This document shows, piece after piece, positions 7,019-64,000 of a DNA stretch of 64,000 nucleotides. The notes under the pieces are model-generated. The model made no database searches, had not been told where the DNA came from, and saw only the letters and a program-made list of their open reading frames with translations. The DNA lies in the NCBI RefSeq assembly GCF_040869045.1, contig NC_090321.1, positions 34,593,426 through 34,657,425 on the forward strand, read 5' to 3'. Made by a program: the position numbers and the translations under genes. The stretch is from Eurosta solidaginis. Taxonomy: Eukaryota; Arthropoda; Insecta; Diptera; Tephritidae. How positions within the stretch are numbered: position 1 is the first letter of the stretch; each line of letters begins with the position of its first letter.

Positions 7019-7985
<967 letters not shown>

Positions 7986-8635
7986 TCTCATTGCCTCATA
8001 CGATTCTGAGTCACTCATCTTTGTTATACTACCACCTGACCGCCATGGTGGGGAAGAAAAACCCTCCGCCACAACCGTTCATGTGTAAGGTTACCGTTAC
8101 TTCGGGAGGATGATTCGGTATCTGGAGGCCTGCATAGCTGAATAAACTAGCTAGCTGCAAATTCAAAACGTTTCAATATTGTTGTGCTTATTTAAGCGTT
8201 TTCTTTGTTTTCCATATTGCAGAAACAGATTCAGGGCGGGTCTATATTTTAGGCGATATGTCCGAAGTGGATTGATATATCCAAAAGAAAGACTCCGCAT
8301 ATAGTAAAAATCTCAAATCTCGGTGCCGTTTTGGATGATATTCCCGATATCAGTTGAAATTAGATTGATCTATATTTTAGTACCTACACATTTCCGAAAC
8401 TGAGTAAAATATTGAAATGCTGGACCTAGCTGTCTTCTTATAGAAATATTTCCTATAGGGCTGTTCTTAATGGCGCCTTTCGTTTGATGTCGTTATAAAA
8501 ATAGTTTATAGGTCCAAAATGCTTGCGATATCTTCGAAATCTGTTAAGATGCCCAAGGCAAAGATTGGTTTGACAACCATAATGGGGGAACTGATTAAGT
8601 GCCTTACTTGGTGTAATTTGGGTGTTATCTCCAAA
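7986..8635. other. Probable Helitron interior / intronic sequence
   Basis: There are no coding features. The segment includes phrases such as GGCGATATGTCCGAAG and TAGTACCTACACATTTCC, in the style of other non-coding dipteran repeats. I could not find its boundary with the Helitron. Confidence 0.3.
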
Positions 8636-12685: not shown

Positions 12686-13450
12686 AGTTTGTACGACTGT
12701 AAGCATTTAACGCCTACTTATTTCTTCGAGTAGGCCTTGTGTCTTCCGTAACGTTGGAACCGTCGATATACACGTACATCGTGTAATCTGTTATTGTAGT
12801 TTCATGATCTCTTTCGAAGCTCAGGAACCTGCCATATAGCTACCATGCAGATGAAACCCGAATGTGTGAAATGAATTGTACGTACTTCTAGTATACTGAT
12901 TTAAAGCATGCAACTGGGTATATAATGATAAATTACAACCGTAATGGACCTGCCTTCCTTGTTGTTATGCTCTTTTCTTATTTTATTTAAATACCTACAT
13001 TTTTTTTTTTTGGCCACCAACATAACACTACAATTGATTGATTGCTTGCATTGATTGTGCAATGCATTTTTGATTAAAGAAATTTTAATGGAAAAAAGTA
13101 GCTACGACACAAACAAAAAACATTCCATACATAACAAAACAATTAGAAATCAATTTAAAAAGCTACACAACTGGACCACACCTGTGTGTTGTCCAAGACA
13201 AAAAGGCGACATGGCTGGCAGACAACATGCTGGAATAGCTCAGGCGCTCTTAGCTACCACGTGAAGCATTAAATGAATATGAACGCCTTCAATTACTCAT
13301 AGAAGTTCTCAGAAATAATCGTATACTCACAATTCATACAACAAATGTCAGTCCAACTGTCAACTAATTAATTAAATTTCAATTGAATTTATTAACTCGA
13401 ATTTGTGTTGAGCAAATGCCAACAACTACAAAAAAAAAACAAACAAAAAA
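12686..13450. other. Intronic sequence, nothing recognised
   Basis: AT-rich with poly-T near 13000 and A-rich runs at about 13428-13450, where the next HINE inserts. A 69-codon ORF at 13055-13264 has no domain or splice context. Confidence 0.45.
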
Positions 13451-15150
13451 AACAAGTAAGGAAGGTTAAGTTCGGGTGTAACCGAACATTATATACTCAG
13501 TTGAGAGCTATGGTGGAAACATAAGGGAAAATAACCATGTAGGAAAATGAACCGAGGGAAACCCTGGAAAGTGTTTGTATGGCATGGGTATCAAATGGAA
13601 GGCATTAAAGAGTCATTTATGAGGGAGTGGGCCTTAGTTTTATAGGTGGGCGCCGTTATGAAATATCGCCATAAAGGTGGACCAGTGGTGATTCTAGAAT
13701 GTGTTTGTACGATATTGGTATCAAATTAAAGGTATTAATGAGAGTTTTAAAAGGGAGTGGTGGTAGTGGTATATGTGAAGGCGTTTTCCAGATATCGACC
13801 AAAATGTGGACCAGGGTGACCCAGAACATCATCTGTTGTATACCGCTAATTTATTTATATATGTAATACCACGATCAGTATTCCTGCCATTATTCCAAGG
13901 GCTTTCGATTTCGCCCTGCAGAACTTTTTCATTTTCTTCTACTTAATATGGTAGGTGTCACAACCATTTTACAAAGTTTTTTCTAAAGTAATATTTTGCG
14001 TCAATAAACCATTCCAATTACCATTTTTCATCCCTTTTTTCGTATTTGGTATAGAATTATGGCATTTTTTTTCATTTTTCGTAATTTTCGATATCGAAAA
14101 AGTGGGCGTGGTCATAGTCGGATTTCGTTCATTTTTCATACCAAGATAAAGTGAGTTCAAGTAAGCACGTGAACTAAGTTCATTAAAGATATGTCGATTT
14201 TTGCTCAAGTTATTGTGTTAACGGCCATGCGGAAGGACAGACGGACGACTGTGTATAAAAACTGGGCGTGGCTTCAACCGATTTCGCCCCTTTTCATAGA
14301 AAACAGTTAACGTCACAAAATCTATGCCCCTACCAAATTTCAAAAGGATTGGTAAATTTTTGTTCGACTTGTGGCATTAAAAGTATCATAGACAAATTAA
14401 ATGAAAAAGGGCGGAGCCACGCCCATTTTCAAATTTTCTTTTATTTTTGTATTTTGTTACACCATATCATTACTGGAGTTGAATGTTGACATTATTTACT
14501 TATATACTGTAAAGATATAAAATTTTTTGTTAAAATTTAACTAAAAAATTTTTTTTTTAAAGTGGGCGTGGTCGTTCTCCGATTTTGCTAATTTTTATTA
14601 AGCATACATATAGTAATAGGAGTAACGTCCCTACCAAATTTCATCATGATATCTTCAACGACTGCCAAATTTCAGCTTGCAAAATTTTAAATTACCTTCT
14701 TTTAAAAGTAAGCGGTGCCACGCCCAATGTCCAAAATTTTACTAATTTTCTATTCTGCGTCAAAAGTTCAACTCACCTACCAAGTTTCATCGCTTTATCT
14801 GTCTTTGGTAATGAATTATTGCACTTTTTCGGTTTATCGAAATTTTCAATATCGAAAAAGTGGGCGTGGTTATAGTCCGATATCATTCATTTTAAATAGC
14901 GATCTGAGATGTGTGCTCAGGACCCCACATACCAAATTTCATCAAGATACCTCAAAATTTACTCAAGTTATCGTGTTAACGGACGGACGGACGGACGGAC
15001 GGACATGGCTCAATCAAATTTTTTTTCGATCCTGATGATTTTGATATATGGATGTCTATATCTATCTCGATTCCTTTATACCTGTACAACCAACCGTTAT
15101 CCAATCAAACTTAATATACTCTGTGAGCTCTGCTCAACTGAGTATAAAAA
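13451..15150 (-). mobile_element. HINE copy B, complete, inverted
   Basis: Full-length relative of copy A in the opposite orientation. The 3' terminus (plus-strand AACAAGTAAGGAAGG) is at 13451. It is followed by a perfect six-base stem, GTTCGG and CCGAAC around GTGTAA (13470-13487). The subterminal repeat TATACTCAGTTGAGAGC follows at 13492-13508. Two ~130-bp internal units lie near 13588 and 13718. The GGAC microsatellite is at 14980-15003, and the 5' terminal repeat at 15133-15150. It sits between A-rich sequences, consistent with insertion into oligo-A/T. Confidence 0.8.
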
Positions 15151-15789
15151 CACAAGAAACTGCAGCCTTAGCTCCAACAGAAATAACAAATAGAACACAA
15201 ACCTGAAAACCTACAAAAGCCTAAACATTTTACCTAAGCGCAACAACAAAAACCAACTACGAGGATGAAATGCAGACACTTCACGCCGCTAAAGTAAATG
15301 TTAGAAAAAGTGTCTAAAGCACAAACAAAGTACAAACGGAGCAAAAACATAAAAAACCGATTTGAAACCAGCTTGTCAGTAGCTACAAGATAAGCTGTCA
15401 TATATTACAACAAAAAAAACTAAAAGTTTGTATACCATCAACAGCAACAACAAACACTAAGTATACAAACTTTATAGGAACATTAAAAAAAAAGATGGTA
15501 ACAAAATGCGGTAACAACTACTGTATTTGCCACTGCTCATATGCCTGCCTGGCAGTAGCCGCAGTTAGAATGACAAAAACAATGTGATGTGAGTGAGAGT
15601 TTCAAAAGTTGGCTAAGTGTGGTTAGCATTATGGTATGTCACACTTCGCAGCACAGTGTTCTTTAAGTGTGAAATATGTACTTAAAATAATTTGTTTAGT
15701 CATTCTACAAATTTATCTAGCAAAATTAACAACCGTAGTCAGTTCGTGTGCATTCGTGAAGCGCGCTCCTTAAGTGGCCCTGCAAAAAA
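15151..15789. other. A-rich intronic sequence, nothing recognised
   Basis: Rich in CAACAA and AAAAAC runs (15150-15500), then unremarkable sequence. No ORF or element ends. Confidence 0.45.
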
Positions 15790-18905: not shown

Positions 18906-19141
18906 TCCAAAGCCCGCCCGACTGGCGCGAGGTCATGCATCCGCATGAAGCACGGATTTGTTTTTGTTTTTGCCGAATTGGTGATAGGCGGAGGTTTGTT
19001 AAGCGTCGAGATCTAAAACTGCTCAGCTACAGAATAAAAATCATCAGCTGAGTACTATATATAACAGTTAGAAATTACATAACAGTTAGAAATTATACTT
19101 ATACATTGTTAAATTACAGAACATTTTTAGCTTATTCGATT

Positions 19142-19142
<1 letters not shown>

Positions 19143-19179
<37 letters not shown>

Positions 19180-20020
19180 GAGTTAAAATAGGGTAAGACA
19201 GTTTTCTTTATGGTAAAAAGTGAATCCGTTATATCGAATGAATTAGAATGAGTGTTGAAATCATGACACAAATACCGAAAAGGTTCATTCAATTCGAAGT
19301 TAGTTCTACACTGCCTCAAAAGAAGGGGTTTGTAATGTCTTGACACTCGTGATGGGACGTTAAAGTTTACTTCGTTTAAAAGAATTGGACTAGAAATCAA
19401 TCCATTCAGGAGCTTAGTAATAAATATAACGCCTAGCATTTCTCTACGACTTGCAAGAGTTGGAAGATTGATAAGCTTCAACCGACTAGTATAAGACGAA
19501 AGATTATACGCAGAGTCCCACTGAATATTCCTTAAAGAGAAAAGTAGAAATTGCTTTTGTATTGATTCAAGTCTATCTGCATGAACTTGATATTGTGGAT
19601 TCCAGACTATTGATCCGTAGTCTAGTATCGGTCTAGCTAAAGTGATGAAACGCGCTTTAGTTACATTATGATCACCAAATTCTTTAGACCACCGTTTCAC
19701 GTATGAAAGAACACCTCTAGCCTTATTGACAGTAGCATTAATATGAAGGTTAAAACTAAGTTTAGCATCTATCGTGACTGCCAAGTCCACAAAATAGTTT
19801 ACTGATGGAAGACAAAAATTATTAATTACGTAAGAGGCTGCTGGCAAAGATCTTCGAGAGAGGGACATGCATTTGCACTTATTAAGGTTCAGCGGGATTG
19901 AATTTATGGTGCACCAGGTAACTAGGTAGTTTAAATCCGGTTGAAGCAAGGGACGTTCTTCGATAGACGCATAAGACCTAAAAAGTTTTACATCATCAGC
20001 GTACATTAAGATTTTGGAAT
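19143..20020 (-). pseudogene. LINE ORF2, RT 3' part and C-terminus
   Basis: Minus-strand frame 20006 to 19176, about 276 residues. It opens with the RT catalytic motif YADDVKLF, continues through thumb-like sequence and ends in NS-stop. The stop codon runs straight into a poly-A tail (plus-strand T run, about 19143-19177), a typical LINE 3' end. It is out of frame with the upstream RT part by a shift near 20020, so the ORF is broken exactly at the active-site junction. No target duplication was found next to the tail. Confidence 0.88.
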
Positions 20021-20788
20021 ATTTTATATATCGTTAATAAAAAGCAAGAACAGAACTGGACCGAGGTGACTGCCTTGTGGGGTGCCAGAGGGAACATGGA
20101 TAACATTTGCAAGAGTATTTTTAAAAATGACTTTTTGCGTTCGACCGCAGAGATACGATGAGATCCACTGCGTGAGACCAAGTTGGAAGCCAAGTTGATA
20201 CAGCTGGTAGATAAGTAATGAGTGGGATACTTTGTCAAATGCTTTACTGAAATCAGTATAAATAACATCGGTGTGAAGATTTTTTCTAAATCCATTAGAA
20301 ACATGAGTTTTGAATTCAAGTAGATTTGTAATGGTAGATTTATCTTTACAGAATCTGTGTTGCGGTTCTGCAATTAAAGTAGAAATGGAAAATGCTAGCT
20401 CATTGGTAACGATAGCTTCAAACAACTTTGGGATGGCCGACAACTTTGCTATTCCTCGATAGTTTTCAACACACGACCTACTACCACTTTTGTGCAGGGG
20501 TATGAGAAAAGATTCCTTCCAAGCAGAAGGAAAAATTCCACGTTTTTTAAGAAAGCAGGTGGGAATTAAATCAAGACCGTACTTGTAAGATTCCTTCAAA
20601 GACGTTAAATATGAAAAAACTTCATGAGGATATATTGCTGGAATATTAACTGTGTTAAGTGAGTTAAGTCGAAATGGATATTCATTTGAAAAAGGATTAA
20701 ATTCAGCGGAATAGTTGGCCTTGAAAAATTGTGCGAAGAAGTTAGCAATATCTTGATCGTCGCTAGACAAATCATCCTGGTATTTTAA
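20021..20788 (-). pseudogene. LINE ORF2, RT fingers and palm
   Basis: Minus-strand frame from about 20770 to 20024. It carries RT signature blocks in order: SFLIPLHKSGSRSCVENYRG, an AEPQHRFCKDKSTITNLLEF block, DVIYTDFSKAFDKVSH with a catalytic Asp, and SGTPQGSHLGPVLFLLFIND. This is the CR1/jockey-like arrangement. Its upstream end is cut at 20785-20788 (TTAA) by the piggyBac insertion, and the reading continues beyond that element at 24207. Empty-site joining implies one missing base, so this LINE also carries a frameshift there. Confidence 0.9.
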
Positions 20789-23700
20789 CCCGAATCACCC
20801 TCAGATTGCCATATGGCAACGCGCAATAGTCTTCCAATGAAACGTTCACAAATTTCCAAAGAATGCACATACCGTTAACTTTTTTGCGCGTGGTGTGACG
20901 CAATTGATCGCGCTTTAAGCAGCATTCATTTCCTCATCAGTATAAATTACATAGATGACATGATATGAAACTTCTCGCTCTCTGAGAGCGCGTGAAAATG
21001 TGCATTTTTTATAACATTGACCATAGATGCCATCATCCTCAAAATCAAATTTGGGCATTTCGGAATAACTTTGGGGTATTTTACATGGTAAAGGTTTAAT
21101 TTATGATTTTCACTGAAAACTTACTCAAGATTGTCAAATGGGATATCAAAAAACTCGAATTTTTTCAGGATCACAAATACAAAAAAAAGCTTATTTTACC
21201 CGTTAAAAATTTTTCCGTGACAACACGTGAAATTTAATTTTTTGATAGCTAAGATAAAATGTACTTATCTCTTTTCGTGCGTTAATATAACAGCTCATTT
21301 AATTTTGTTATTTCTTGTACCTTTTTTACAAATTTTTGATCCGCTTATGTAGTTGAATACACTTGAAATGAAAAATAATGAAAACGCACAGATTTTCTTG
21401 GAATTTTTTTGCACGGTTTACGCAACTCTGATCTTCAAGACCCATTCTTGGAAACGAATGAAGTTTGTTTACAATCGAATGAACCAATGTTTACAATTGA
21501 ATGAACTTTAAGACCCATTCCTGGAAACGAATTGAGAGAGAATGAATGTTTCGTATCATGTCATCATTGATAAATTAGTTTGTGATAGTGAGCGCACTTC
21601 AAGATTGATAAAAAATTTCTATTGAAAAAAAAACGGGAGACAAAAAAGTAAGTAGATCTATAACATCTATAAAAAACGTGATTAAGCTATAAAATTTGTG
21701 GTTTTGTGTAGTGTTTGAAGCGCAAAACAACATCTAATTATTTGGTTATAAAAAAAATGTATTTCAATGTGTTTTTTCGTGTGTTTCCGTGGCTGTGTCC
21801 ATATGGCAACGCTAGGCAGGCTAGACCACTGGTTTAGATTTCAATGTTTTTGCTGCGTTTTATTGCTTTTGTTGTTAATTGGAGGTCTCCTAAAGGCCTA
21901 GATTGGTTTATTATGTATACGTACAATATTTTAGGCTTTTTTTATTCTAACCTTTTTGAATAAAACTTTCTTTGCAAGAAGCACTGGATTTTTTGGAAGA
22001 ATTGTTCTCGGATGAGGGGAACGAATTTCCAAAAAATATCCAGGCACTTTACATCGAGCCACCTGAGCAGGATGGCAACATAAGTGGTGAAGATGATGGT
22101 GACGTTGAAGGTGGAACTCCAGATAATGTTTTCCCAGCTCAACTAAAGACCGGATGTGAAATCGTGTTTGAAAGTGGCATGCGAATCAACACGTACGACT
22201 GCAGCCAAAGCGATATTGATGACTCTGCACCTGATGATAGCTTCAATGATTGCTTACCAAGCACTTCAAAGGAAATTCGTTGCGAGATCTCATCAAAACC
22301 TGAAATTTCACTTCCACCAAGTAACAAAGGCAGTGAATACACTTGGAAACCCAATAATTAATTGACAGTGCTTCCTATCTTTCCTGAACCGAATTTCAAA
22401 GACTGTCGAGAACTTGGACAACATGAAATATTTGAGAAGGTTTTTAGCGGTGACTTGCTTGAACATATATGCAAATGTTCGAATTTGTACGCTATGCACA
22501 ATCAGAAACGATACGAACCACTTACTGTAGGAGGTAATGAAGTTGTACTATCCATTACGATTAACACAAGTAACCAAAATTTTTTCAGAATTACGTGTGT
22601 TCATGAGAATTTTGATAGCAACTGCCTACGATTCTACCGGATCCTTTCGAGACATGTGGAGCTGCGAAGACGACCTTCAAAACACAATGGTCGTCAATGC
22701 TATGCGAAGAAACCGCTTCGAGGAAATTAATTACATGCTACACTTCGAGTCATCAGTATGCGAAGTGGCAGCAAGTTCCGGCAGATTCGATACTCTTTGG
22801 AAACTACGCCCATTGACTGACCATATAAAGACCAAAATGATTGAAAAATTTTATCCAGAACCAAATCTCTCATATGACGAAAGCATGATTGCATATTTTG
22901 GATGCCATGGATGTAAACAATTTATAAAAGGAAAGCCAATACTTTTGAGTACAAGGCTTGGTCTCTTTGCTCTCCTAGTGGATACATGATCAATTTTGAA
23001 ATATACCTAGGCAAAAATCCGAGGATGAATCCTAAATATGAAGGTAGATTTGACATTTGCGCAGCTCCACTTTTGTGTATGATTGAGGATTTTTCGGAAG
23101 AAGTGTAAAAACTTCCGTTCTCATTTTACTTTGACAATCTTTTTACTGGAATACCGTTGCTGATTTACTTGACAAATAAAAGCTACCAAGTTTCAGGCAC
23201 TATTCGCGAAAACCGAACACCAAAAAATTGTCCTATTCCACATAAAAAAAAATTGCGGAAATGCAAAAGAGGGTATTTCGAGGCCACGGAAATCAAAGAG
23301 GAAGGAATTCATCTGACAAAATGGGTGGATAACTCGGTGGTCTGCCTCGCTTCGACGTGCTTTGGCTCTGAACCACTATCCAAAGCATCTCGCTACAGTA
23401 GCAAATTGTGTAGAAAAATTCCTGTTCCACGTCCATGCGTTGTAACCCAGTACAACAAATTTATGATGGGTGTTGATCGATTTGACCAAAATATTTCAGG
23501 TCAACGCATCTCTTTTCGAGGAAAAAAACGGTGGCACTGCATTTTTACTTGGGTTATGGATGCGAGCATTCAGAACAGTTGGCTTCTTTATAGATCCTCT
23601 AATGAAAATGTGTCACTTAAAGACTTCAGGAGAGAAATATCCATTTACTACTGTAAGCACTACGGCGTCCAACCGAAAATTTTTCAAAAATGTTCAACTA

Positions 23701-24202
23701 AACGTACGGAATCCTTAGCGAACGCTCTACGCTATGACAGAACAGATCATCTTGTAATTCCAATCAAAAATAAGAGGCGATGTGCTGGAGACGTATGTAG
23801 GTCCATCGTGCGAACATCCTGCAAAAAATGCAATGTCGGACTTTGCTTGCCTTGCTTGGAATCATATCATACAAAAACTTGAAAACCCAAATTTTTACAA
23901 TATAAGTTTATATTTTTTTCAATGAAATGTTCTAAAATGAATTCACAATATTTTGTTTTTTCAAATACACGCCCACGAAAATAATTAATTTGAATTTTAA
24001 AGGGTTACGGAATGATTTATTACGTATATGTAAACCAGTGGTCTATCCTACCTGGCGTTGCCATATGGCAACAGGACATTTCAAGAACCCTGCGTCCAGG
24101 ACATAAAATCTAATGATGCATTTTTTTAGTTGGACCTAAAGGATACTGCAAAACAAAAATCTCTTCGAAATTCCACAAAAAATTTACATAGGGTGATTCG
24201 GG
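20789..24202 (+). mobile_element. piggyBac-superfamily transposon, full length, decayed
   Basis: The ends are a perfect 13-bp inverted repeat, CCCGAATCACCCT (20789-20801) and its complement (24190-24202). TTAA is duplicated at 20785-20788 and 24203-24206, the piggyBac target signature. The body is 3414 bp and contains a decayed transposase on the plus strand. Palindromic GTTGCCATATGGCAAC-type sequences lie near both ends. A second inverted pair of about 40 bp (21796-21838 and 24034-24072) brackets the coding block. It is inserted in ORF2 of a minus-strand LINE. Confidence 0.95.
21972..23882 (+). pseudogene. piggyBac transposase (DDE_Tnp_1_7), broken
   Basis: Frame 1 (21972-22361) is an acidic N-terminal region (GNISGEDDGDVEGGT) typical of the family. 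Frame 2 (22362 on) and frame 3 (22537-22989) together carry the conserved core, including MRRNRFEEINYMLHF and NLSYDESMIAYFGCHGCKQF with a catalytic Asp. A shift near 22960 leads to a frame with a TAA stop at 23106-23108, followed by FYFDNLF (second Asp) and GVDRFDQN (third Asp). A C-terminal Cys-rich segment (CKKCNVGLCLPCLESYH) ends at 23882; this zinc-binding tail normally binds the terminal repeats. At least three frameshifts and one stop make it non-functional. The sequence just before 21972 looks like a splice acceptor (TTTCTTTGCAAG), so a short upstream exon is possible. Confidence 0.9.
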
Positions 24203-24206
24203 TTAA

Positions 24207-25362
24207 AGCAGAGGGAAACCCTTTAACCCTACGTTTAGAGTTCACGAAATCATAGACGGCTTTCGTATTGCAAATTATTTTCCTTTTCATCTTACATATA
24301 CATATACGTATTATAGCACTTTTTGTTTAATTCAAACTATTTATGACGCAAAATAGAGTATTGCAAGTAATCGGAGTGAGCGCCTGATCTTTTGAATAAT
24401 TTGAAAAAGCGCGATTTTCTGTTTTTTAAAGACCTCAGCTCTTTAGTGAACCATATTTGGATTGGTTCGGTAGACACACGTTTTCGCTTAGGTACGTATT
24501 TTTTCCAAAATAACGTAAATGGTGGAATAAAAGTCAAAAACAGTTTTTGCAATATCTACAACGTATATGGGCCAAGCTACTGTAGATAAAGTTTGATTAA
24601 GCTTCTTAAAATTAGCCTTCGCAAAGTCAAATCTGAAACTAGAATCGTATTTAGTAGCAATGCTACTCGGAGAATTTCTTTCAAATTCGTATGCTATATA
24701 TGCAGGGAAGGATGGTAAGGGTCTTCAGGTACAGTAAGAGGTTCACCTCGGCTTAGAGTACATTTTGATGTATAGTCAACAAATACCAAATCAAGGGTTC
24801 TACCGAACATGTTAGGAATTATATTTATTTGTTTAAGGCACAGTTCAGTTATTTCAGCTAAAAATTCGTTGTTGAACAGTTTTGAAGAAATAGGTACAAT
24901 ATCATAATCAGATATGGTCCATAATATATGCGGGAGATTAAAGTCACCCAAGACGATCATCGAATTAATGGGCTTCAACATTGAATTAACAATTTTCAGC
25001 AGGGAGATATGATCCATATACACCGAAGGATCAAAAGAAGGTGGGATATAGCAGACTGCAATATAGACAAAACCCATTGCGAGCTTGTTTCTAATGCATT
25101 TGAATTCTGTAGAATCGGTAACGGGTAAATCAACCTCAGCTGAAGGTACAGAAGAATGTACCGCAAGCAAAACTCCACCACCAATTCTGTTCAAGCGGTC
25201 ATTTCTGTATATTTGGTAATCATGGCAAAGAATCTCTGAGTTAAATACATGAGGTTTTAGCCATGTTTCAGTTGAAGCTATAATGTTGTAATTGCAGTTA
25301 AACCATTTCAAATACAATTCTGTTAGTTTATTGTTTAGGCCTCTAACATTTTGATAAAACAC
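24207..25362 (-). pseudogene. LINE ORF2, endonuclease domain and linker
   Basis: Minus-strand frame from 25362 opens MFYQNVRGLNNK and carries apurinic-type endonuclease blocks: ASTETWLKP, a glycine-rich GGGVLLAV stretch, VCYIPP and VLGDFNLP. The frame breaks near 24690 and again near 24510. It then runs through the usual linker (WFTKELRSLKNRK, 24337-24552) and, after a further stop and shift, to about 24207, where the piggyBac element cuts in. The enzyme would nick target DNA for target-primed reverse transcription. It follows ORF1 by only about 20 bp. Confidence 0.9.
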
Positions 25363-25382
25363 ATTAAGGACCGATTTAGCAT

Positions 25383-26371
25383 TCAGTTTTTTGATGCAAT
25401 AATGTTATTGGGAAGTGTAGCGATATTTAGGGTATTATTGTTACGCTTACGCTCAAATTCCCTCACAAAAGCACCAGGCGGCCAAAAAGAATTATTTAGT
25501 ATAGTTTCAAAATGTTGTGCGGATACATCAATCCTAAAAGACGAAATATCTCTAGGATAGTTAAAATTGAATTTTCGAATTGTCACGTTATCAAATTTAA
25601 GTTTAGCGATGATGTACGGCTTTAGGTCCTCTTCTGTAGTGTCTTTATCAAATCTTGACACAAAAATTGATTTTTTAATAGGGACAACAATAAGATAACT
25701 AGTCGGCGGTTCGGATTCCGCATGAGGGTTTTGGGGATTCTGATTACTTTTTATAGAAGATTTTTTAGGTTTTGTTAATGAAATCTTTGATGAAGATGGC
25801 TGAGCCGTTAAGGGACTTGGGGATGCCAGATTTATTAATTCGATAGTTGGCGGTGAACCAACTATGGGTGCAGGAACTTCTGCAATGGCACCAAGTGTCG
25901 GGGCACTAGAGGAAGCACTGTTAGGATGACGGTGTCTATGTGGATTGTTAACGTTAGTTAAGTCATTCAGATATTTGAATGACTTAAATAAGTTTTTATA
26001 CTGGATGAATTTCTTGGACAGTGCGTCAATTTCTCTACCTATTTCAGAGAACCCAACGCGAGCCTGTTTGAATGCTTTGTAAAGATCAATCTCAGTTGGT
26101 CTACATTTCAAACAGGCCCAACGAACTCCCTTATCACTATCGTTGAGTGCGTCAACCACTGTTACAAACCGGCACACTTCATATGGGCGAGCCCATCGCC
26201 ATACCAAATCGGCTCTAATTTTTGCACCTTCTTATCATTAATGAGACCACAGTGCAGTCGCGTTATCCCTTTAAACAAATCAAATGTCCAACAAAATAAA
26301 CGTTCATATTTACACATCCAAATCCGCATAGTTGAGTCGCGTTCAAGTGGAAAGAAATAAATCCAAATCAT
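25383..26371 (-). pseudogene. LINE ORF1 with PHD-like finger, broken
   Basis: Two minus-strand frames overlap around 26162-26207. The upstream one has a CGL...HMKCAGL pattern and the downstream one continues ...GVRWACLKC, together spelling a PHD-type zinc finger split by a frameshift. The remaining 274-codon frame (26207-25383) has a coiled segment, a Ser/Pro-rich middle, and a C-terminal block FVSRFDKDTTEEDLKPYI that resembles an RRM-like nucleic-acid-binding fold. PHD plus RNA-binding ORF1 proteins are known in CR1-group LINEs. It would bind element RNA. The true start is unclear. Confidence 0.75.
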
Positions 26372-27394
26372 ATCATTTTAATAAGCAAAATTCAATAAAA
26401 GCAAAGACAAGAGCTCAGCGCGCGTAGCCACAAAAACATAAGAAAAACTTTTAGAGAAGAAACAAGAAAACAAATCAAGAAAGTTTTGTCTCGTAGTGGC
26501 TCTAAACATTTGGTGCTTCCACATATTTCTCTTTCATTTTGTATTCTATAGCAGGCCAACGAAGCATGGTTTCTGATAGCCTAGTCTATGAAATATCTTG
26601 CATTGAGCTGCCAGTTGTGCCACCTAAGTTTTCAAATAAAAAGCGTTGTATTTAACAAAAATAAATATACACAATCACATTAATCACTTGTAGAGCAATG
26701 CTAACAAACATAACGACATTTATTTAGATGTACATATGTCATATGGAACAAATGCGGTTTTCATTTCTATGAATAAATGCCCCTGGTGGCAACGCGCATG
26801 CGCACACGCCACTCAATTTAGATTAGAAATTATCAGCTGACATGTGCGATGCAGACCAACGGCACACTCTACACTTTTGTTTTTTATTTTTATTTTTTTT
26901 TTGCTTATTCGAACACCTCTGCTTTATACCACAACTCTTCCGTCCCCCTCGACTAATCATTTACCTACCGGCTTGTGCAGGCGTTCAACTTCATATGTTC
27001 AACTTTGCGTTAGTCACAAGGAGCTTCGGGTTTTAAAGCTCTCCATAGTTCATTGCTGTTTTTGTGGTTTATGATAAAATTCTTAATAAGAACAGACAGC
27101 TCGAGATGGCAGTAAATTTATACGTAGGTACCTACTAAAGTATTTGAGCATAGATTTGTGACCGGTATTTTGCCTGTGATATAGTCATGCGTCAGTTGTC
27201 ATTAGAATGATGATGAGTAAAAATATTTGAAATTAGAGACGAAATTCTTTGGAAAACCCAAAAATGTCAATTTCAGAAGCACTAGCTCGAACAAGGAATT
27301 TTGAGATAGGTTCACTAAATCGAAAATTTTATTTGTTTCTAATTTGATTTAAAAGGGATGTGCGTATTTTTCTCGTGCCCTAAGCTTAAGGCGA
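26372..27394. other. Possible LINE 5' UTR, then unrecognised intronic sequence
   Basis: 26372-26560 may be the 5' untranslated region of the minus-strand LINE, but no target duplication confirms its end. Beyond that the sequence is AT-rich, with short ORFs at 26842-27074 that lack any domain. Confidence 0.35.
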
Positions 27395-29559: not shown

Positions 29560-30030
29560 GACGCAAGTTTAAGTGTGTTGATCACTGCACAAGCTCCTGC
29601 ATAAATGGGTCTTGAGTCAGCTCAGCAAGCGTTCTTTCATTTGCAGGCTAGCAAGATCCTTCTTGTCGGAAGTGGATGGTAGTAGGTCTGCCGTATTAAT
29701 TGGGTTATTAAGGCTTAGCTATCAATGGTCATTGAGGTTTTGACAGGGCACTGTCCAATGAGCATCCATGTGGTTCGTCTCAACATACTAGAAACCTTAT
29801 CCTGCTGCAGCTGTATGGAGGATGATGAAGTGGAATCATCGAGTTACTTTATGTTTGATTGCTCAGTTTTTCCCAGAACTCGGCGAAAATATTACAGTCG
29901 TGACTAACTGGGATCTGCGGAGGATTTATCAAAAGTTTCGATCGGTCTCATTACAAAGCAATATGGTTGCTACCCAACGATTCTATAAGTTGCTATAGCT
30001 ACATTCCCGTTATTTTATATGGTATCACTA
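29560..30030 (+). pseudogene. R1/Loa-like LINE tail (RNase H end and Cys motif), decayed
   Basis: A frame at 29725-29907 holds LTGHCPMSIHVVRL, then a Cys cluster (CCSCMEDDEVESSSYF and MFDCSVFPRTRRKYY). Together they match the C-terminal H..C..C zinc-knuckle region that ends ORF2 of R1/Loa-type LINEs after the RNase H domain. Flanking frames are full of stops. The LINE is interrupted at 30029-30030 by a TA-target TIR element and seems to continue briefly at 30998. Confidence 0.7.
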
Positions 30031-30995
30031 CACTCAGAGAAAAAATCGTTCTAAAACGAACGAAACAAGTTCAAAATTAAGAACATTCGTTGACAAAAGT
30101 CTGTTAAGTACGTTTTTTCTTAACTTGTGACCGATGGGATTGTTTTAAGAACAGTTTTTCCAAGCACACCGTTCGTATTTTATGATCACTTTGGTATTGA
30201 TGTGTGAACCTTCTGTGCTCATTTCAAGCACTACTTGGGCTTGATTTAGGATTTTTCGTTCTCACGCTTCGAGAACGATTTGGGGCCGATTTAACATTTT
30301 TCGGTCTCAATTTAAGAACGGTTCGGTGGGAGGGAAAGTATTTTTTTAAATATATTTATTTAATTTTTATTAATAATAATATTTTTGTCATAAATAAAGA
30401 ATATTTACAACAAAAAAATTGTTATTAAAATTCAAAAGTTTAAGAAAAAATGCATAATAAGCATTTTTTCATACATTTCTCTTTTTGAGAAATTATTCTT
30501 ATTTAAAGATGTAATCTGCATATATACTCAAAACATTTCATAACAAGTTTGAGAATTACCTGTGGATATGTGAATGGAACTGAACGAAAAATAAGAGTTA
30601 AAAAAATAGAACAAAAAAAATTGTATTAAAAAATTCAGAGTTTGGTGGTGATCGAACTCGCGCAACACGATCGCAAGCGCAACATCATAGCCGCTGGGCC
30701 ACTACAACTGCTTTATAGCTGCTGCCAAATGGTGTATTTAACATTATAGTGCACACGAATTGTACCGTTTTTTTTTTCTTGGGCTTGATTTAAGAACATC
30801 GTTCTCATTAATAGAACATTTGTTCATATTTTAAGACCGGCCGTTCGTTTTTCAAGAAAATGGTGTCAGTTCAAGAACAAGGATGTTGTTTTAAGAACAG
30901 GTCGTTCGTTTTTCAAGAACAAAAAAGTAAGAACATGAAAAGCTTGAGTTGAGTCCGCTGGTGCTGGATTTTAGAACGGCGTTTTTCTCTGAGTG
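30031..30995 (+). mobile_element. TA-target TIR element CACTCAGAG, copy 1
   Basis: A 965-bp non-coding element with inverted ends CACTCAGAGAAAAA and duplicated TA (30029-30030, 30996-30997). It carries repeated TTAAGAAC-type octamers. On the minus strand a tRNA-like module at about 30645-30715 has A box TGGCCCAGCGG and B-box core GTTCGATCAC. It inserts into decayed LINE sequence. Other copies lie at 48534, 51851 and 54206. TIR and TA suggest a Tc1/mariner-type or related mobiliser; no transposase is present. Confidence 0.9.
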
Positions 30996-30997
30996 TA

Positions 30998-31110
30998 CGG
31001 GCCCTTATGTTGTCCAAGTGAGCTTCCCCTACCAGGGCAGCTAACATCTAATCTAGCCTAGCCTAAGTGGACATGTGTGAAGTCCGCACGTCCTCTCAAC
31101 CTTACAAAGC
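30998..31110 (+). pseudogene. R1/Loa-like LINE 3' remnant after the TIR insertion
   Basis: CCAGTGAGC-style tail wording and CCTAGCCTAAG lead into AAGTCCGCACGTCCTCTCAA. This resembles GAGGTCCGCACGAACCAGCC at the end of the other R1/Loa-like fragment (38247-38266). It supports continuity across the TIR element. Confidence 0.5.
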
Positions 31111-32741
31111 CTGGATAGATGTGATACAATGTGCTCATATTCAAGTTCTTCCAGTAGGCCCGAATGCTGAAAATTACAAAGAAATACATCACACTGCGTC
31201 TAGTAAACGAGTTTGGGTCATGACATGCGGCATGAAATTTCTTAAACAAAGCTGTGTTATTTCTTTAAATTCCTTTAGATTATTTTCATTATCATATTTC
31301 TCATATTAGCCGATAGCATTCATATGCGAAATATTCATATTTTTCAAAGATAATTTATTCCTTAAACAACTCAATTGTTCCACCCGAATCACACCCAACT
31401 TCCCAGCCCACAAAAAAAAATTATCACAAAAAGACTGCAAGTAAGATCAAAACCAATGCAACTGCAAAGCAAAAGCAGCATCCAAACACGTAAAGCCGTA
31501 GCAGCACATGATGTCGAGAAGCGGCCTTAAATCCGCGCTTGAACGTGATTTGTGCGCACGCGCGCACCTGTGGCCCAGGTACTATATGTATGATGCATGC
31601 TGGGCCGTTGGCAGTTCAGTCTAAACGTCAACATTAAGCGCGTGTTTGACATGTCTGCGTTTGTGCAGTGGTGCAGCGCATTCAACCAAGCGCTAAATCG
31701 GCAAGTAGTCAGATATGTATGTTTGTACTTATGTGCTTATAGCGATTATGCATTTCGATTTCTTTTTCAAAGATTTTGCCTGTTTGATGTTTACTTTCAT
31801 TTTGTTATTATTTCTTGTTTTCTTGGTTGCAGCATTCTGTTAAATATTTGTATGTGTCTACATTTTTTAATTGGATTAATCCATCCATCAAAATTATGTA
31901 CATTCAAAAGGGACTGCATTAGTGTCACTTTTTTTTTAAAGAGGTGTACGTAAAACTTCAAAATAATTTAATTGTAATAATAATAAAAATTTCGAGGTTC
32001 TTCTGCAAGCCGGCCAGAACATGCGGCGCGATTTTATCAAGGGTCTAGCGAAATTTTCTCTTTTAATACTTTGGGCCTTACAGGAAGCGCTTTTTAAGAA
32101 TGGGCCCAACTGGTGTTGCCTAAATAGGCATCGTGAAGATTTTTCTAGGCTGGTTATGAAAATAAAAAGCAGTCTGTATGATGCAACGCTCCAAGTTATT
32201 ATTATTATCGGTGCTTTAATAAAAAATGTATAAAATAGCTCCCGATTAGATTGAAAAAAGAATCTTCTATTAAAACAGTGTTGCAATAGTTTGACAGCGA
32301 AGAGTAGAAAAGAGCTCGTTGTCTGTTAAACTAATTAAAAATGTTTACTTCACAACTAAAAGCGCGTTTAAATCAAACTGATTAGTGATTCCTCAGCTTG
32401 CACTGCTTTTATACTTTCAGTTTTCTCGTTCACCCATTTCTCCTAAGGCCTAGTTATTTGGCGAACAGTTGTATCTCATGCTTGGTTACCAGCTATATAC
32501 ATGCATATTTGTAGTTGCCTTCCTACTACCCATATGCGTGTGCATGTGTGAGTAACTACTTCTTCCCTTAGCTGATGACCACATATGTGTATGTGAGATA
32601 TCTCTTCACTTCGAGCTACTGGTTATGTGTGTGGAATATTCTTCGTTCCTTGTATATAAGTGTCGCTGCTTGCTGTTTTTGTTGTTGTGATTATTTACTA
32701 ACAGCATATTGATGTCAACATTCACCATAATATATACTGCT
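31111..32741. other. Intronic sequence without a recognised gene
   Basis: AT-rich. ORFs at 31597-31953 (118 codons) and 31936-32286 (116 codons, minus) show mixed hydrophobic composition without domain, codon conservation or splice context. A CGCACGCGCGCAC run lies near 31554. Confidence 0.45.
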
Positions 32742-34932
32742 TTTTTATACTCAGTTGAGCAGAGCTCACAGAGTATATTAAGTTTGATTGGATAACGGTT
32801 GGTTGTACATATATAAAGGAATCGAGATAGATATAGACTTCCATATATCAAAATGATCAGGATCGAAAAAAAATTTGATTGAGCCAAGTCCGTCCGTCCG
32901 TCCGCCCGTTAACACGATAACTTGAGTAAATTTTGAGGTATCTTGATGAAATTTGGCATGTAGGTTCCTGAGCACTCATCTCAGATCGCTATTTAAAATG
33001 AACGATATCGGGCTCGAATATTCGAAAATTTCACTCGAAAATTTCGAAAAACCGAAAAAGTGCGATAATTCATTACAAAAGACAGCTAAAGCGACGAAAC
33101 TTGGTAGATGAGTTGAACTTATGACGCAGAATAGAAAATTAATAAAATGTTGGACAATGGGCGTGGCACCGCCCACTTTTAAAAGAAGGTAATTTAAAAC
33201 TTTTGCAAGCTGAAATTTGGCAGTCGTTGAAGATATCATGATGAAATTTGGCAGGAACGTTACTCCTGTTACTATGTGTACGCTTAATAAAAATTAGCAA
33301 AATCGGAGAAGGACCACGCCCACTTTTAAAAAAAAATTTTTTTAAAGTAAAATTTTAACAAAAAATTTTATATCTTTACAGTATATAAGTAAATTATGTC
33401 AACATTCAACTCCAGTAATGATATGGTGCAACAAAATACAAAAATAAAAGAAAATTTCAAAATGGGCGTGGCTCCGCCCTTTTTCATTTAATTTGTCTAG
33501 GATACCTTTAACGCCATAAGTCGAACAAAAATTAACCGATCCTTTTAAAATTTGGTAGGGGCATAGATTTTATGACGTTAACTGTTTTCTGTGAAAATGG
33601 GCGAAATCGGTTGATGCCACGCGCAGTTTTTATACACAGTCGTCCGTCTGTCCTTCCGCTCGGCCTATAACACGATAACTTGAGCAAAAATCGATATACC
33701 TTTACTAAACTCAGTTCACGTACTTATCTGAACTCACTTTATCTTGGTATAAAAAATGGCCGAAATTCGACCATAACCACGCCCACTTTATCGATATCGA
33801 AAATTTCGAAAAATGAAAAAAATGCCATAATTCTATACCTAATACGAAAAAAGGGATGAAACATGATAATGTAAGTGGATTGTTTTATTGACGTGAAGAT
33901 AACTTTAGAAAAAACTTTATAAAATGGTTGTGACACCTACCATATTAAGTAGAAGAAAATGAAAAAGTTCTGCAGGGCGAAATAAAAAACCCTTAAAATC
34001 TTGGCAGGTATTACATATATAAATAAATTAGCGGTATCCAACAGATGATGTTCTGGGTCACCCTGGTCCACATTTTGGTCGATATCTGGAAAGCGCCTTC
34101 ACACCACTCCCTTTTAAAACTCTCATTAATACCTTTACTTTGATACCCATATCGTACAAACTCATTCTAGAGTCACCCCTGGTCCGCCTTTATGGCGATA
34201 TCTCGAAAAGGCGTCCACCTATAGAACTAAGCCCCACGCCCTTTTAAAATACTCATTAACTCCTTTCGTTTGATACCCATATTGCACAAACGAATTCTAG
34301 AGTCACCCCTGGTCCACCTTTATGGCGATATCCCGAAACGGCGTCCACCTATGGAACTAAGGATTACTCCGTTTTAAAATACTCATTAACGCCTTTATTT
34401 TGATACCCATATTGTACAAACAAATTCTAGGGTCACCCCTCGTCCACCTTTGTGGCGATATCTCGAAACGGCGTCCACCTATGGAACTAAGGATTACTCC
34501 CTTTTAAAATCCTCATTAACACCTTTCTTTTGATACCCATATTGTACAAACAAATTCTAGGGTCACCCCTCGTCCACCTTTGTGGCGATATCCCGAAAAT
34601 ACGACCACCTATACAACAACCACCACTCCCTTTTAGAACCCTCATTAATACCTTTAATTTGATACCCATATTGTACAAACAAATTCTAGAGTCACCCCTG
34701 GTCCACCTTTACGGCGATATCTCGAAACGGTGTCCACCTATGGAACTAAGGCCCACGCCCTTTTAAAATACTCTTTAATGCCTTTCATTTGATACACATG
34801 TCATACAAACACATTCCAGGGTTTCCCTCGGTTCATTTTCCTACATGGTTATTTTCCCTTATTTTTTTACCATAGCTCTCAACTGAGTATGTAATGTTCG
34901 GTTACACCTGAACTTAACCTTCCTTACTTGTT
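32742..34932 (+). mobile_element. HINE copy C, complete, next to the Pax exon
   Basis: 5' TATACTCAGTTGAGCAGAGC, a CCGT tetranucleotide tract at about 32889-32909, and a body of CACGCCCACTTT-type blocks. Six ~130-bp units have TGATACC-type starts near 34141, 34271, 34401, 34531, 34660 and 34790. The subterminal inverted repeat is CTCTCAACTGAGTAT. It ends CTTCCTTACTTGTT at 34932, only 96 bp before the exon acceptor. It is longer than copies A and B mainly because of more 130-bp units. Confidence 0.85.
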
Positions 34933-35028
34933 TAAACATGTAGTTTGGTATTTGTAAAAAGCCTCTTTACAACTTATTTGAGCTAAGCATTTTCATAATA
35001 TTAGAATATTTTTTTTCTTTTTTTACAG
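34933..35028 (+). promoter_or_regulatory. Splice acceptor region of the Pax exon
   Basis: The only non-repeat sequence between HINE copy C and the exon. It holds a strong poly-T tract (about 35009-35024) and the acceptor ACAG (35025-35028). A branch-point candidate GAGCTAAGC lies near 34980-34988. Its shortness means the whole acceptor signal has to fit in 96 bp. Confidence 0.75.
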
Positions 35029-35140
35029 GAAGGCTTCACCGATCCACCATCAACATCGTCCATCAGTCGTCTGTTGCGAGGTAATGATCGTACCAGTGAA
35101 GATGGACGAAAGGATTATAGTATACACGGCTTGTTAGGTG
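35029..35140 (+). CDS. gsb-n: Internal exon of a gooseberry-type Pax gene (paired-domain end and octapeptide)
   Basis: This is the only host coding sequence I can defend. A polypyrimidine tract and ACAG precede 35029, and GTAAGT follows 35140. The 112 bp read as 37 codons plus one base (phase 0 to phase 1) with no stop. The protein has [15 protein letters not shown], the C-terminal recognition helix region of the paired (RED) subdomain. It then has an acidic/basic linker and YSIHGLLG, matching the Pax octapeptide that recruits Groucho. Known family: gooseberry, gooseberry-neuro and paired are transcription factors of fly segmentation and CNS patterning. The [14 protein letters not shown] form fits gooseberry-neuro best; gooseberry is the alternative. 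The rest of the paired domain and the homeodomain were not found here, so both flanking introns must be very large. Confidence 0.86.
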
Positions 35141-35380: not shown

Positions 35381-36134
35381 AACAAGTAAGGACGGGACTG
35401 TCTTCATACCTTTCATGAATGGGGCAGAACAATAATCTTATCCCGTTCGTAACCTCCAAATAATCGGATGTATAAGATAAGAAATATATAGTGAACACAT
35501 GTAAATACCTAAACGATTTTTAAGATAAATATAAAATAAAAAATGATAAAAAACACCCTTATCTGAACGATCGGCTGTATGGGGTATATATTGTATAGCT
35601 CCGATCGAAATGATTCTTTCAGGAAATCGTCTATGATATATTAAAATATCTATCACCAAGTTTAACGTTTTTATATTAGAAATTAAGGGAGAAATTGCCA
35701 AAAATCTTTCTAGCTGAACGATCGGTTGTATGGGATATAACTATATATAGATCCGATCAAAGTTTTTTTTTCATGATATCTTTTACAATATATTAGAATA
35801 TATATCACCGAGTTTCACGTTTATACTTTCTAAATTGCGGCAGGAATGACCAAAATTGTCTTATCTGAACGATCGGTTGTATGGGAGATATATGTTATAG
35901 TGGTCTGATATAATACAAAAATACATCCTTCATTGAGATCTCTCAAAATTTGATAGACTAGTTTGCGTTCAAACAGACAGGCGGACGGAACGACAGACGG
36001 ACATGGCTATATCAACTCAGTTCGTTACCCTGATCAATTCGGTATACTTAATGGTGAGTCTATCTTCTATATTTCTCAACGTTAAAACATCGGACTAAAG
36101 TTAATATACCATTTCATGTTCATGAAAGGTATAA
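35381..36134 (-). mobile_element. HINE-like element, family 2
   Basis: A different body from copies A-D but the same plan. The 3' terminus is plus-strand AACAAGTAAGGACGG at 35381. A subterminal repeat ATACCTTTCATGAA (about 35406) is matched inverted at the 5' end (36119-36132). A tract of GGACGGA-type tetranucleotides lies near 35991-36004. Two or three internal units share GAACGATCGGTTGTATGGG (35718, 35869, and a variant near 35565). Non-coding. Confidence 0.7.
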
Positions 36135-39362: not shown

Positions 39363-40111
39363 ATGAAACGTGCTTACCCGGGTGGTGTCGAAAAAAGAGG
39401 GGACAAAAAAAAAAGGAAAACGAAGAATCGGTCAAAATCAACCTACAAATTACTTCGTGGTTGACAAAAATTGAAAAAATTGGCACGGAAAATCAAGGTT
39501 TGTATATTAGCATCAGACATATGCGATTTATGGAAAATAGAAAAGTTTTCCAACAAAAGATCACGCAGGGTCAAGATTCATTTCGATGAACTATGTCAGG
39601 ATGAAAGATTCAATGATTCAGAGCAATGCTTCCGAGTGACTATTTTCTATCCCATGATTGATACTATATCATCCCAACACGAAAATAGATTCGACGGAGT
39701 GAAACAAGTTCTGGGTGATTATCAAGTCTTGCAGCCACAGTTCCTAGCAAATGCTTCGATAAAGAGCTTGGAACAAAAAGCTGACGAGTTTTCCATACAA
39801 TTTTCTGAGGATGTATCGGCATCATTTTCCTCTCCATTACTGTCTGTCAGGTCTACATGTCAGAAAGAACTTGCCCCTATGAAAGATGTGAAGGTGTTGG
39901 ATCATTTTTTTATTATTCAAAATTCATCTTTGTCTTCGAGCTACGCAGATGTTTGAAATTGATTAAAAACTACCTGCGAAGGACGATGGCACAAGAAAGG
40001 TTAAGTAATTTGGCGCTATTGTCCATCGAAAATCAAAGAGCACGCAGAGTGGATTATAATGTGGTGACAGACAAATTTGCTGCTGTGAAATCGAGAAAAA
40101 AACTTTTATAG
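39363..40111 (+). pseudogene. hAT transposase remnant (ZMYM1-like group)
   Basis: An N-terminal fragment at 39363-39464 starts MKRAYPGGVEKR and stops after 33 residues. A second frame (39471-39956) carries the mid-region with RFDGVKQVLGDYQVLQPQFL and a run to SSSYADV-stop. A third frame (39857-40111) supplies part of the C-terminal dimerisation domain, LKLIKNYLRRTMAQERL, followed by ENQRARRVDYNVV. The catalytic middle and the segment just before the dimerisation helix are missing. Wording is closest to the ZMYM1-like hAT transposases found in many animals. Not functional. Confidence 0.85.
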
Positions 40112-54203: not shown

Positions 54204-54205
54204 TA

Positions 54206-55182
54206 CACTCAGAAAAAAAATCGTTCTAAAACGAACGAAACAAGTTCAAAATTAAGAACATTCGTTGACAAAAGTCTGTTAAGTACGTTTTTTCTTAACT
54301 TGTGACCGATGGGCTTGTTTTAAGAACAGTTTTTCCAAGCACACCGTTCGTATTTTATGACCACTTTGGTATTGATGTGTGAACCTTCTGTGCTCATTTC
54401 AAGCACTACTTGGGCTTGATTTAGGATTTTTCGTTCTCACGCTTCGAGAACGATTTGGGGCCGATTTAACATTTTTCGGTCTCAATTTAAGAATGGTTCG
54501 TACTTGATCTTTGGTGGGAGGGAAAGTATTTTTTTAAATATATTTATTTAATTTTTATTAATAATAATATTTTTGTCATAAATAAAGAATATTTACAACA
54601 AAAAAATTGTTATTAAAATTCAAAAGTTTAAGAAAAAATGCATAATAAGCATTTTTTCATACATTTCTCTTTTTGAGAAATTATTCTTATTTAGAGATGT
54701 AATCTGCATATATACTTAAAACATTTCATAACAAGTTTGAGAATTACCTGTGGATATGTGAATGGAACTGAACGAAAAATAAGAGTTAAAAAAATAGAGC
54801 AAAAAAAATTGTATTAAAAAATTCAGAGTTTGGTGGTGATCGAACTCGCGCAACACGATCGCAAGCGCAACATCATAGCCGCTGGGCCACTACAACTGCT
54901 TTATAGCTGCTGCCAAATGGTGTATTTAACATTATAGTGCACACGAATTGTACCGTTTTTTTTTCTTGGGCTTGATTTAAGAACATCGTTCTCATTAATA
55001 GAACATTTGTTCATATTTTAAGACCGGCCGTTCGTTTTTCAAGAAAATGGTGTCAGTTCAAGAACAAGGTTGTTGTTTTAAGAACAGGTCGTTCGTTTTT
55101 CAAGAACAAAAAAGTAAGAACATGAAAAGCTTGAATTGAGTCCGGTGGTGCTGGATTTTAGAACGGCGTTTTTCTCTGAGTG
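54206..55182 (+). mobile_element. CACTCAGAG element, copy 4, complete
   Basis: 977 bp with TA at 54204-54205 and 55183-55184. It is nearly identical to copy 1 over long stretches, including the tRNA-like module (about 54830-54905, minus strand). It retains an 18-bp stretch (around GTACTTGATCTTTG) missing from copy 1. Confidence 0.92.
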
Positions 55183-55184
55183 TA

Positions 55185-61655: not shown

Positions 61656-63284
61656 CCGATTTTTTGATTTTGCTACCGTTATTTCTTTTGGTGTACGATT
61701 ATGAACTTTAGTTGAAGAACGCCTAACCCAAGACAATGATTTATAATGGCCCTTTAATAAAATTTAGTATTTAGACAGTACATTCAAGAATCCAAGTGAA
61801 GCTAATTCGTTGCTGGTAGCTTTCGTTTCACAAACCACCTGAGATTCGATGTTTTTCAGAGTTATGAATTATTGAACTAAATTCAAAGCCTTGATATTCT
61901 TGACCAACATTTTGAGAGACATGAGTTTTGATTTGAGTTCTGGAACAAATCATTCTTTTACTTAGTTGTAACATAGCCTGCTAAACATCTACATATATGA
62001 TACATTAATATTTGTTGAAGTATTCGCTTTGACTAGATGAGATTGGCAATTTGGCTGGGAAGCTGTGAAGGCATGAAGCATTGTATTACCCCTTGAACTC
62101 CCATATATATACCGTTCTTCGTATAAACTATAAAATATCATGCCTGGACCTCGTACTGAGAAATTTCCATTTTTGGAACAAAAGATATTAAGTCTGTCAA
62201 CTTAGATGTTAAGTTAGGCACTTTTTAAGAAAGCCTATATTTTCAGGGAGCCTATCATAATCACTGCGGCGTAATTTTTATTGCAAAGAAACATTTAAAA
62301 TTTAAAAATTGTATCTAACTTTAATAAAACTCAGCTCAAACTCAAATCGATTTTTTTTCTTTTTATTTCATTTATTCGTTAACTCTTTGTTTCGCCAAGC
62401 TGTCTAGCTCGCCACCATATTTTTTCAATCCAAAGATGTCTGTAGCCTGTCAGCTGTAGGTCACGACCTGTATAAAAGAAGTAAGAAGAAAAAATTTAAA
62501 TAAAATTATGTTAAAAATACTTACCTACGTACATACCACCGCCAAAACATACAAAGAATCTTAACCCAAATCTGTGAAATTGACTGACACCTTTAAATTC
62601 CTAAACTATTTATTTTGTCTGTTTATGTTGTTGTTATTATTATTATTTTTTAAAGCAGTGTCAGTAGCCAAAAAATCAATCCATCTTTCAATTTCGATTT
62701 CAGTAGTGTATTTTTATAACTTATGTTAGATCTCAAAATCTGTAAATGTCAAATCGATGTGGGGGCAACTTGAATTGTCATCAATCAACGTAATCTCGCC
62801 GTCAGTTAAGTAGTTACGTATTCATGTTGTTAGCTGTCTAATTGTGGCCGGACGTCGTATTTTTGAATGTAACGTAGGACAAAAAATGAGCAAAATTTGA
62901 ACTGATGCGCTTAATAGTTTAGTTGTAGGTTACATTGCGAGTACTGGATTTTATTCATTGCGATGGCTATTTATGGAATATAAGCCAAGGATCTCTAGCT
63001 GAGAACTGTATTAGGAAATTCTAAGTAAATTAATTTACAAAGGCGAACACGAAAATAGCAAAGGTAATTTACATCTAATTAATAAAGTTCAAAGGGAATT
63101 CAGTACAAGGTGGTGTTATCCCATCAGCTGGTTGCTTATTCTTGAAATTGCCATACAATGTTTTTGTACAACAATACGTCAGTTAAAGAAATCAATGCAA
63201 ATTTTCTTCTCACTTGCACGGCGAATTAGGTAAAATTCGCTTTGCCATCACTTTGCATAGATTCGCCTTGATTTAGCTCATTAA
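61656..63284. other. Intronic sequence without a recognised gene
   Basis: AT-rich with a (TTA)n run near 62631-62648. No supported ORF, splice-flanked exon or repeat end. Confidence 0.45.
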
Positions 63285-64000
63285 TTTTTATACTCAGTTG
63301 AGCAGAGCTCACAGAGTACAGAGTATATTAAGTTTGATTGGATAGCGGTTGGTTGTACATATATAAAGGAATCGAGATAGATATAGACTTCCATATATCA
63401 AAATAATCAGGATCGAAAAAAAATTTGATTGAGCCATGTCCGTCCGTCCGTCCGTCCGTCCGTCCGTCCGCCCGTTAACACGATAACTTGAGTAAGTTTT
63501 GAGGTATTTTGATGAAATTTGGTATGTCGGTTCCTGAGAACTCATCTCAGATTGCTATTTAAAATGAACGATATCGGACTATAACCACGCCCACTTTTCT
63601 GATATCGAAAATTTCGAAAAACCGAAAAAGTGCGATAATTCATTACCAAAGACAGCTAAAGCGACGAAACTTGGTAGGTGAGTTGAACTTATGACGCAAA
63701 ATAGAAAATTAGTAAAATTTTGGACAACGGGCGTGGCACCGCCCACTTTTAAAAGAAGGTAATTTAAAATTTTGCAAGCTGTAATTTGGCAGTCGTTGAA
63801 GATATCATGACGAAATTTGGCAGAAACGTTACTCCTATTACTATATGTACGCTTAATAAAAATTAGCAAAATCGGAGAAGGTCCACGCCCACTTTTAAAA
63901 AAAAATTTTTTTTTAAATAAAATTTTAACAAAAAATTTAATATCTTTACAGTAAATAAGTAAATTATGTCAACATTCAACTCCAGTAATGATATGGTGCA
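63285..64000 (+). mobile_element. HINE copy D, cut by the window end
   Basis: 5' TATACTCAGTTGAGCAGAGC, then GTACAACCAACC-complement wording and a longer CCGT microsatellite at 63439-63472. The body is nearly identical to copy C. The 3' half lies beyond the window. Confidence 0.9.

Follow-up and report, generated by a model that had tools for sequence, protein, structure and literature searches.

A short exon standing alone in 64,000 nucleotides of repeat-laden Eurosta solidaginis DNA (this whole stretch is referred to here as the window) raises the question of whether it is a working part of a gene, to which gene it belongs, and whether it might be spliced in more than one way. The exon is real and no chance open reading frame. 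On the plus strand, an ACAG acceptor leads into 37 open codons plus one base, followed by a GTAAGT donor, as the preliminary description of this DNA had noticed and as both the sequence and its translation confirm, and a pyrimidine tract precedes the acceptor; the edges read ...TTTTTTTACAG/GAAGGC...TTAGGTG/GTAAGT (slashes mark splice sites), and the translation of 35029-35139 is stop-free, with base 35140 left over (Table 1). A tblastn search of the window with Eurosta Gsb-n (P0009, which represents a cluster of 15 sequences) matched the exon at E 2.5e-19. When all six frames of the window were scanned without gaps, the exon matched at 38 of 38 residues and the runner-up 38-residue stretch at 11 of 38; since residue 38 spans the splice junction, the fair count for the exon is identity at 37 of 37 encoded residues. 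Out of 3417 GT sites on the plus strand of the window, seven, counting the main donor itself, reach its score on a rough scale built on rounded base frequencies. Used alone as a query, the 37-residue exon had no match in Pfam or PDB, a usual outcome for a query of this length, and a scan of viral contigs with Eurosta Gsb-n found no relative.

The protein relatives place the exon in gooseberry-neuro (gsb-n). They were collected with a D. melanogaster Gsb-n query, which database entry P0002 matched at 99%; 6419 relatives were found among 7945 scored candidates, and the best 120 clusters were taken, 60 of which are covered by the per-protein exon match counts. The exon agrees at 35 of 38 positions with each of the Musca, Haematobia and Lucilia proteins and at 32 of 38 with D. 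melanogaster Gsb-n, compared to 24 of 38 for a Zootermopsis 'gooseberry-like' protein and 19 to 21 of 38 for six Anopheles Gsb proteins. Its paired-domain end is of the fly Gsb-n type, and its octapeptide, YSIHGLLG, is the Gsb-n-type octapeptide of P0009. Passages of a mosquito study describe the octapeptide as telling Gsb from Gsb-n, Prd as having none, and gsb-n as sitting beside or near gsb in synteny (PMC7528073). Two other identities were considered and set aside: gooseberry (gsb), by the low Anopheles Gsb counts against 38 of 38 for Eurosta Gsb-n, and paired (prd), which is without an octapeptide while the exon has one. A D. melanogaster Gsb sequence matched nothing in the window other than the gsb-n exon, and that weakly (E 0.001). 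From the exon matches and the octapeptide type together, the exon is therefore gsb-n; the 'gooseberry-type Pax' of the preliminary description holds for the Pax group and can be narrowed to gsb-n rather than gsb.

The boundaries of the exon recur in protein models of other flies. Upstream the boundary is K/EGF, and it fits Eupeodes isoform X2, where SKPK is joined to EGIS, and the Anopheles model P0064, where KLIK is followed by an insert and then by EGV. Downstream the boundary falls inside the Gly codon before RDSD and fits two Drosophila models, P0018 (other sequence, LLMG, then RDSD) and P0025, which starts MSRDSD. Several of these models are worth describing on their own account. P0018 (D. 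pseudoobscura) and P0025 (D. busckii isoform X2) are Gsb-n models without a paired domain that run in frame right after the exon; to judge from their sequences, they could derive from a further promoter within the downstream intron, whose product would have the homeodomain only. P0021, the Eupeodes corollae isoform X2, is another gsb-n isoform in which the preceding paired-domain segment is skipped, and such a skip would alter DNA binding. In P0064, the isoform X1 of Anopheles maculipalpis, the insert interrupts the paired domain where the gsb-n exon has its acceptor boundary.

The exon contains a second candidate donor, after position 35080. It lies 60 bases before the main donor in the same phase, so that a short form spliced from it would stay in frame. 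Its score is 2.51 compared to 6.11 for the main donor, which ranks it second among the 12 GT sites in the exon and its edge, and it has no G at +5; an equal or higher score is reached at 94 of the window's 3417 plus-strand GT sites, so the presence of the site alone is weak evidence. Its U1 pairing energy is -6.7, that of the main donor -9.1, and two neighbouring GT sites, whose windows overlap the main donor, have -9.1 and -7.4. The weight of the argument for this donor rests on a coincidence with P0014, a Bactrocera oleae gsb-n 'isoform X2', and not on the site alone. Compared to P0009, exactly 20 residues are absent from P0014, with RLLRG joined to RDSD, and the protein is otherwise full-length Gsb-n with paired domain and homeodomain kept. 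Neither the internal in-phase donor nor the octapeptide-less B. oleae isoform figured in the preliminary description. In a separate observation, the unnamed protein P0019 scored above P0014 in the search in which P0014 was the query's own entry.

Let us consider, then, that the internal GTAATG is nothing other than ordinary Gly-Asn codons, unused as a donor here, and that the B. oleae X2 model reflects a modelling error or some other cause. The lower strength of the internal site compared to the main donor is in keeping with this, as is the filled octapeptide slot in 152 of 153 scorable relatives, a count to be read with the clustering of the relatives at 90% identity in mind, which can hide further isoforms either way. 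P0014 is the one clean octapeptide deletion among these 153. The scorable relatives come from a set of 159, the remaining six being P0018, P0019, P0025, P0075, P0091 and P0129. In two of these six, P0019 and P0091, inspection by eye reveals an octapeptide; P0076, flagged by the filter as octapeptide-less, carries a variant octapeptide in its sequence. What such an account leaves to chance is that the 20-residue gap of X2 corresponds to the 60 bases between the two donors in length, place and phase. We consider the chances of an unused site to be about even. Use of the internal donor in tephritids, which the coincidence with X2 suggests, is a possibility that we hold at somewhat under an even chance, and equally tentative is the fuller proposal that tephritid gsb-n has an alternative 5' splice site in its paired-domain/octapeptide exon that yields a full-length protein without the Groucho-binding octapeptide. 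The exon may thus be a splice switch for that motif. The octapeptide is described as binding Groucho-family corepressors, and its deletion is reported to enhance the activator potential of PAX3 in myoblasts (PMC4488758, PMC12574859; the PAX3 result in PMC12574859). No description of a gsb-n isoform without the octapeptide was found in the available portions of a literature consisting mostly of sources other than subscription journals, including PMC7528073, PMC12574859, PMC10931086, PMC5333810, PMC2268679, PMC4488758, PMC9632033, PMC4469688, PMC10253641, PMC11260152 and PMC5852603.

Turning to the surroundings of the exon, tblastn with Eurosta, Bactrocera, Lucilia and Drosophila Gsb-n found no gsb-n exon elsewhere in the window among the matches listed; the other matches of these four queries are low-complexity or chance ones, the best (E 0.006) lying in the hexanucleotide array. 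If the scaffold is sound, it follows that the flanking introns measure at least 35,028 bp upstream and at least 28,860 bp downstream, and on that condition the previously suggested intron lengths, above 35 kb and above 28 kb, stand. As for other host genes, 263 stop-to-stop open reading frames of at least 60 aa were collected; leaving aside 38 that belong to two tandem arrays, 225 remained, and the longest 150 of these were scanned against Pfam (E 0.001 or better). Five of the 150 were named, in four families (transposase, reverse transcriptase and endonuclease). Rfam and ARAGORN, neither of which is made for protein exons, gave no matches in the window. Within the limits of these scans, the exon does appear to be the only host gene sequence here, as had been claimed; the Pfam scan is blind to an exon as short as that of gsb-n, and further short exons may have escaped it.

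The preliminary description took the Drosophila gene to be compact, and it was against this background that a large, transposon-driven gene size had been suggested for the present locus. Tephritid genome sizes given in six genome-note abstracts range from 595 to 986 Mb, and an available portion of a further report puts the Eurosta metagenome assembly at ~1.44 Gbp (PMC10253641). With genomes of these sizes, introns of such length are unsurprising. Some tephritid genomes are smaller. The part of the suggestion that concerns repeats is upheld, and a large gene size would be ordinary here.

The repeats include a piggyBac-type transposon, a non-LTR element, two families of dispersed elements and tandem arrays, in agreement with the transposon content that had been suggested. 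Comparison of the window with itself shows at least 17,379 of its 64,000 bases to be repeated, a figure that counts the tandem arrays; 12,893 bases recur at a distance of more than 2.5 kb. The ends of the piggyBac-type element were set by an inverted-repeat search, the TTAA/inverted-end search having given chance pairs only. The same 10-bp word stands at 19130 and at 26903 and may be a target-site duplication of the surrounding non-LTR element, whose outer limit is tentative, as the duplication is only a candidate; its ORF1 has one relative, at 47% identity. Element B has one copy upstream of the exon and three downstream, and the identity of the two tabulated copies points to fairly recent insertion. 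A 163-aa open frame at 39465-39953, with no Pfam match, may be a hAT-type transposase fragment. The nearest recognised repeat to the exon is the element A copy ending at 34933. Element A has inverted repeats near its ends (ATACTCAGTTGAGC / GCTCTCAACTGAGTAT) with a variable 130-bp array inside, and TTCCTTACTTG stands at one end in three copies. A CAAGTAAGGAC word at 35383 resembles an element A end; there are five such matches in the window compared to 1.87 expected, which is weak, and therefore no element is named there.

Table 1. Exon forms, acceptor region and repeats located in the window.
Feature	Position	Strand	Remarks
gsb-n exon, long form: paired-domain end and octapeptide YSIHGLLG	35029..35140	+	phase 0 in, phase 1 out
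Possible short form of exon (EGF...RLLR plus one base)	35029..35080	+	internal donor GAG/GTAATG; phase 1; 60 bases (20 codons) shorter; without octapeptide
Acceptor region: 95 bp from dispersed-repeat end to exon	34934..35028	+	pyrimidine tract and ACAG
Satellite-like array	2224-4429		116-bp unit, 19 copies, 87% matches
Hexanucleotide array (TCCCAG)n	7262-7987		~121 copies; long repetitive ORFs on both strands
Non-LTR retrotransposon	19143..26902	-	endonuclease and reverse transcriptase frames; A tail = T run 19143-19177
piggyBac-type DNA transposon, within non-LTR element	20785..24206	+	Pfam DDE_Tnp_1_7 on two frames; TTAA at both ends; 13-bp matching inverted ends
MITE-like element B, upstream intron	30029..30999	+	ends TACACTCAGAG...CTCTGAGTGTA
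MITE-like element B, downstream intron	54204..55184	+	97.6% identity over 982 aligned columns to copy at 30029
Dispersed element A copy, ~2.2 kb	32741..34933	+	130-bp tandem array inside; ends 95 bp before exon
Element A copies sharing both ends	125-1963, 13448-15153, 32741-34933
Element A copy cut by window end	63272-64000
152-bp tandem repeat, downstream intron	35558..35890		2.2 copies

One might ask, given dense repeats all around and no second gsb-n exon in 64 kb among the matches listed, whether the exon is a stray duplicate or fragment lying in non-genic DNA while the working gene is elsewhere. A free copy would lose its coding match and splice sites unless it were very young, whereas this one keeps 37 of 37 residues of Eurosta Gsb-n and has both splice sites intact; moreover, the nearest recognised repeat also occurs at other places in the window with no copy of the exon. 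We regard a stray copy as very unlikely. Still less probable is an assembly join error that left the exon real and the intron lengths false, for although wrong joins do arise in DNA rich in repeats, several kb of the upstream side are spanned by the nested insertion, which has both of its ends, and by a candidate target-site duplication, and tephritid genome sizes make such introns plausible. With high confidence, then, we take the exon to belong to a working gsb-n gene, one that is presumably intact and transcribed here.

The most probable account of these observations is as follows. The exon is, in all likelihood, an internal coding exon of a working plus-strand gsb-n gene in a tephritid-like fly, whose flanking introns came to exceed 35 kb and 28 kb through the build-up of transposons and tandem repeats, with the ~95 bp of acceptor sequence remaining free of recognised repeats. 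Splicing from the strong donor after 35140 would give the long form, a normal Gsb-n with its octapeptide, and splicing from the weaker donor after 35080 would give an in-frame Gsb-n with paired domain and homeodomain and without the octapeptide. Such a short form would lose the motif by which Pax proteins bind Groucho/TLE corepressors. If the internal donor is used, a single fly gene would offer a natural switch, open to testing, that turns the Pax octapeptide on or off; two proteins would come from that gene, one repressing and Gsb-like, the other Prd-like and free of the octapeptide, and the switch would persist although giant introns full of repeats isolate the exon. We may speculate further that relatives lacking the octapeptide, such as paired, could originate by way of splicing before the motif was lost from the gene.

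Lastly, we compare this exon with the systems already known. Within the Pax3/7 group of Diptera, gsb-n genes are alike in sequence, octapeptide type and, to the extent visible in protein models, exon boundaries; what sets the gsb-n of the window apart is its introns, upwards of 35 kb and 28 kb, lengths known here for the window only, together with the possible second donor. The paralogue gsb likewise has a paired domain, an octapeptide and a homeodomain, and the exon matches it at far fewer positions. The B. oleae isoform X2 has its 20-residue gap at the same place as the stretch between the two donors of the window exon, in a different species, and it is known here from its database name and protein alone. 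Exon 4 of vertebrate PAX7 is probably homologous to the gsb-n exon: in leopard gecko PAX7 it comprises residues 151-195 and takes in the paired-domain end and the octapeptide, with the paired domain at 34-163 and the octapeptide at 186-193, and its loss is in frame (PMC11260152). The gecko mutation either loses the whole of exon 4 or changes two residues at the exon start. Unlike the loss of PAX7 exon 4, use of the second donor in the gsb-n of the window would drop the octapeptide half alone and leave the paired domain whole.
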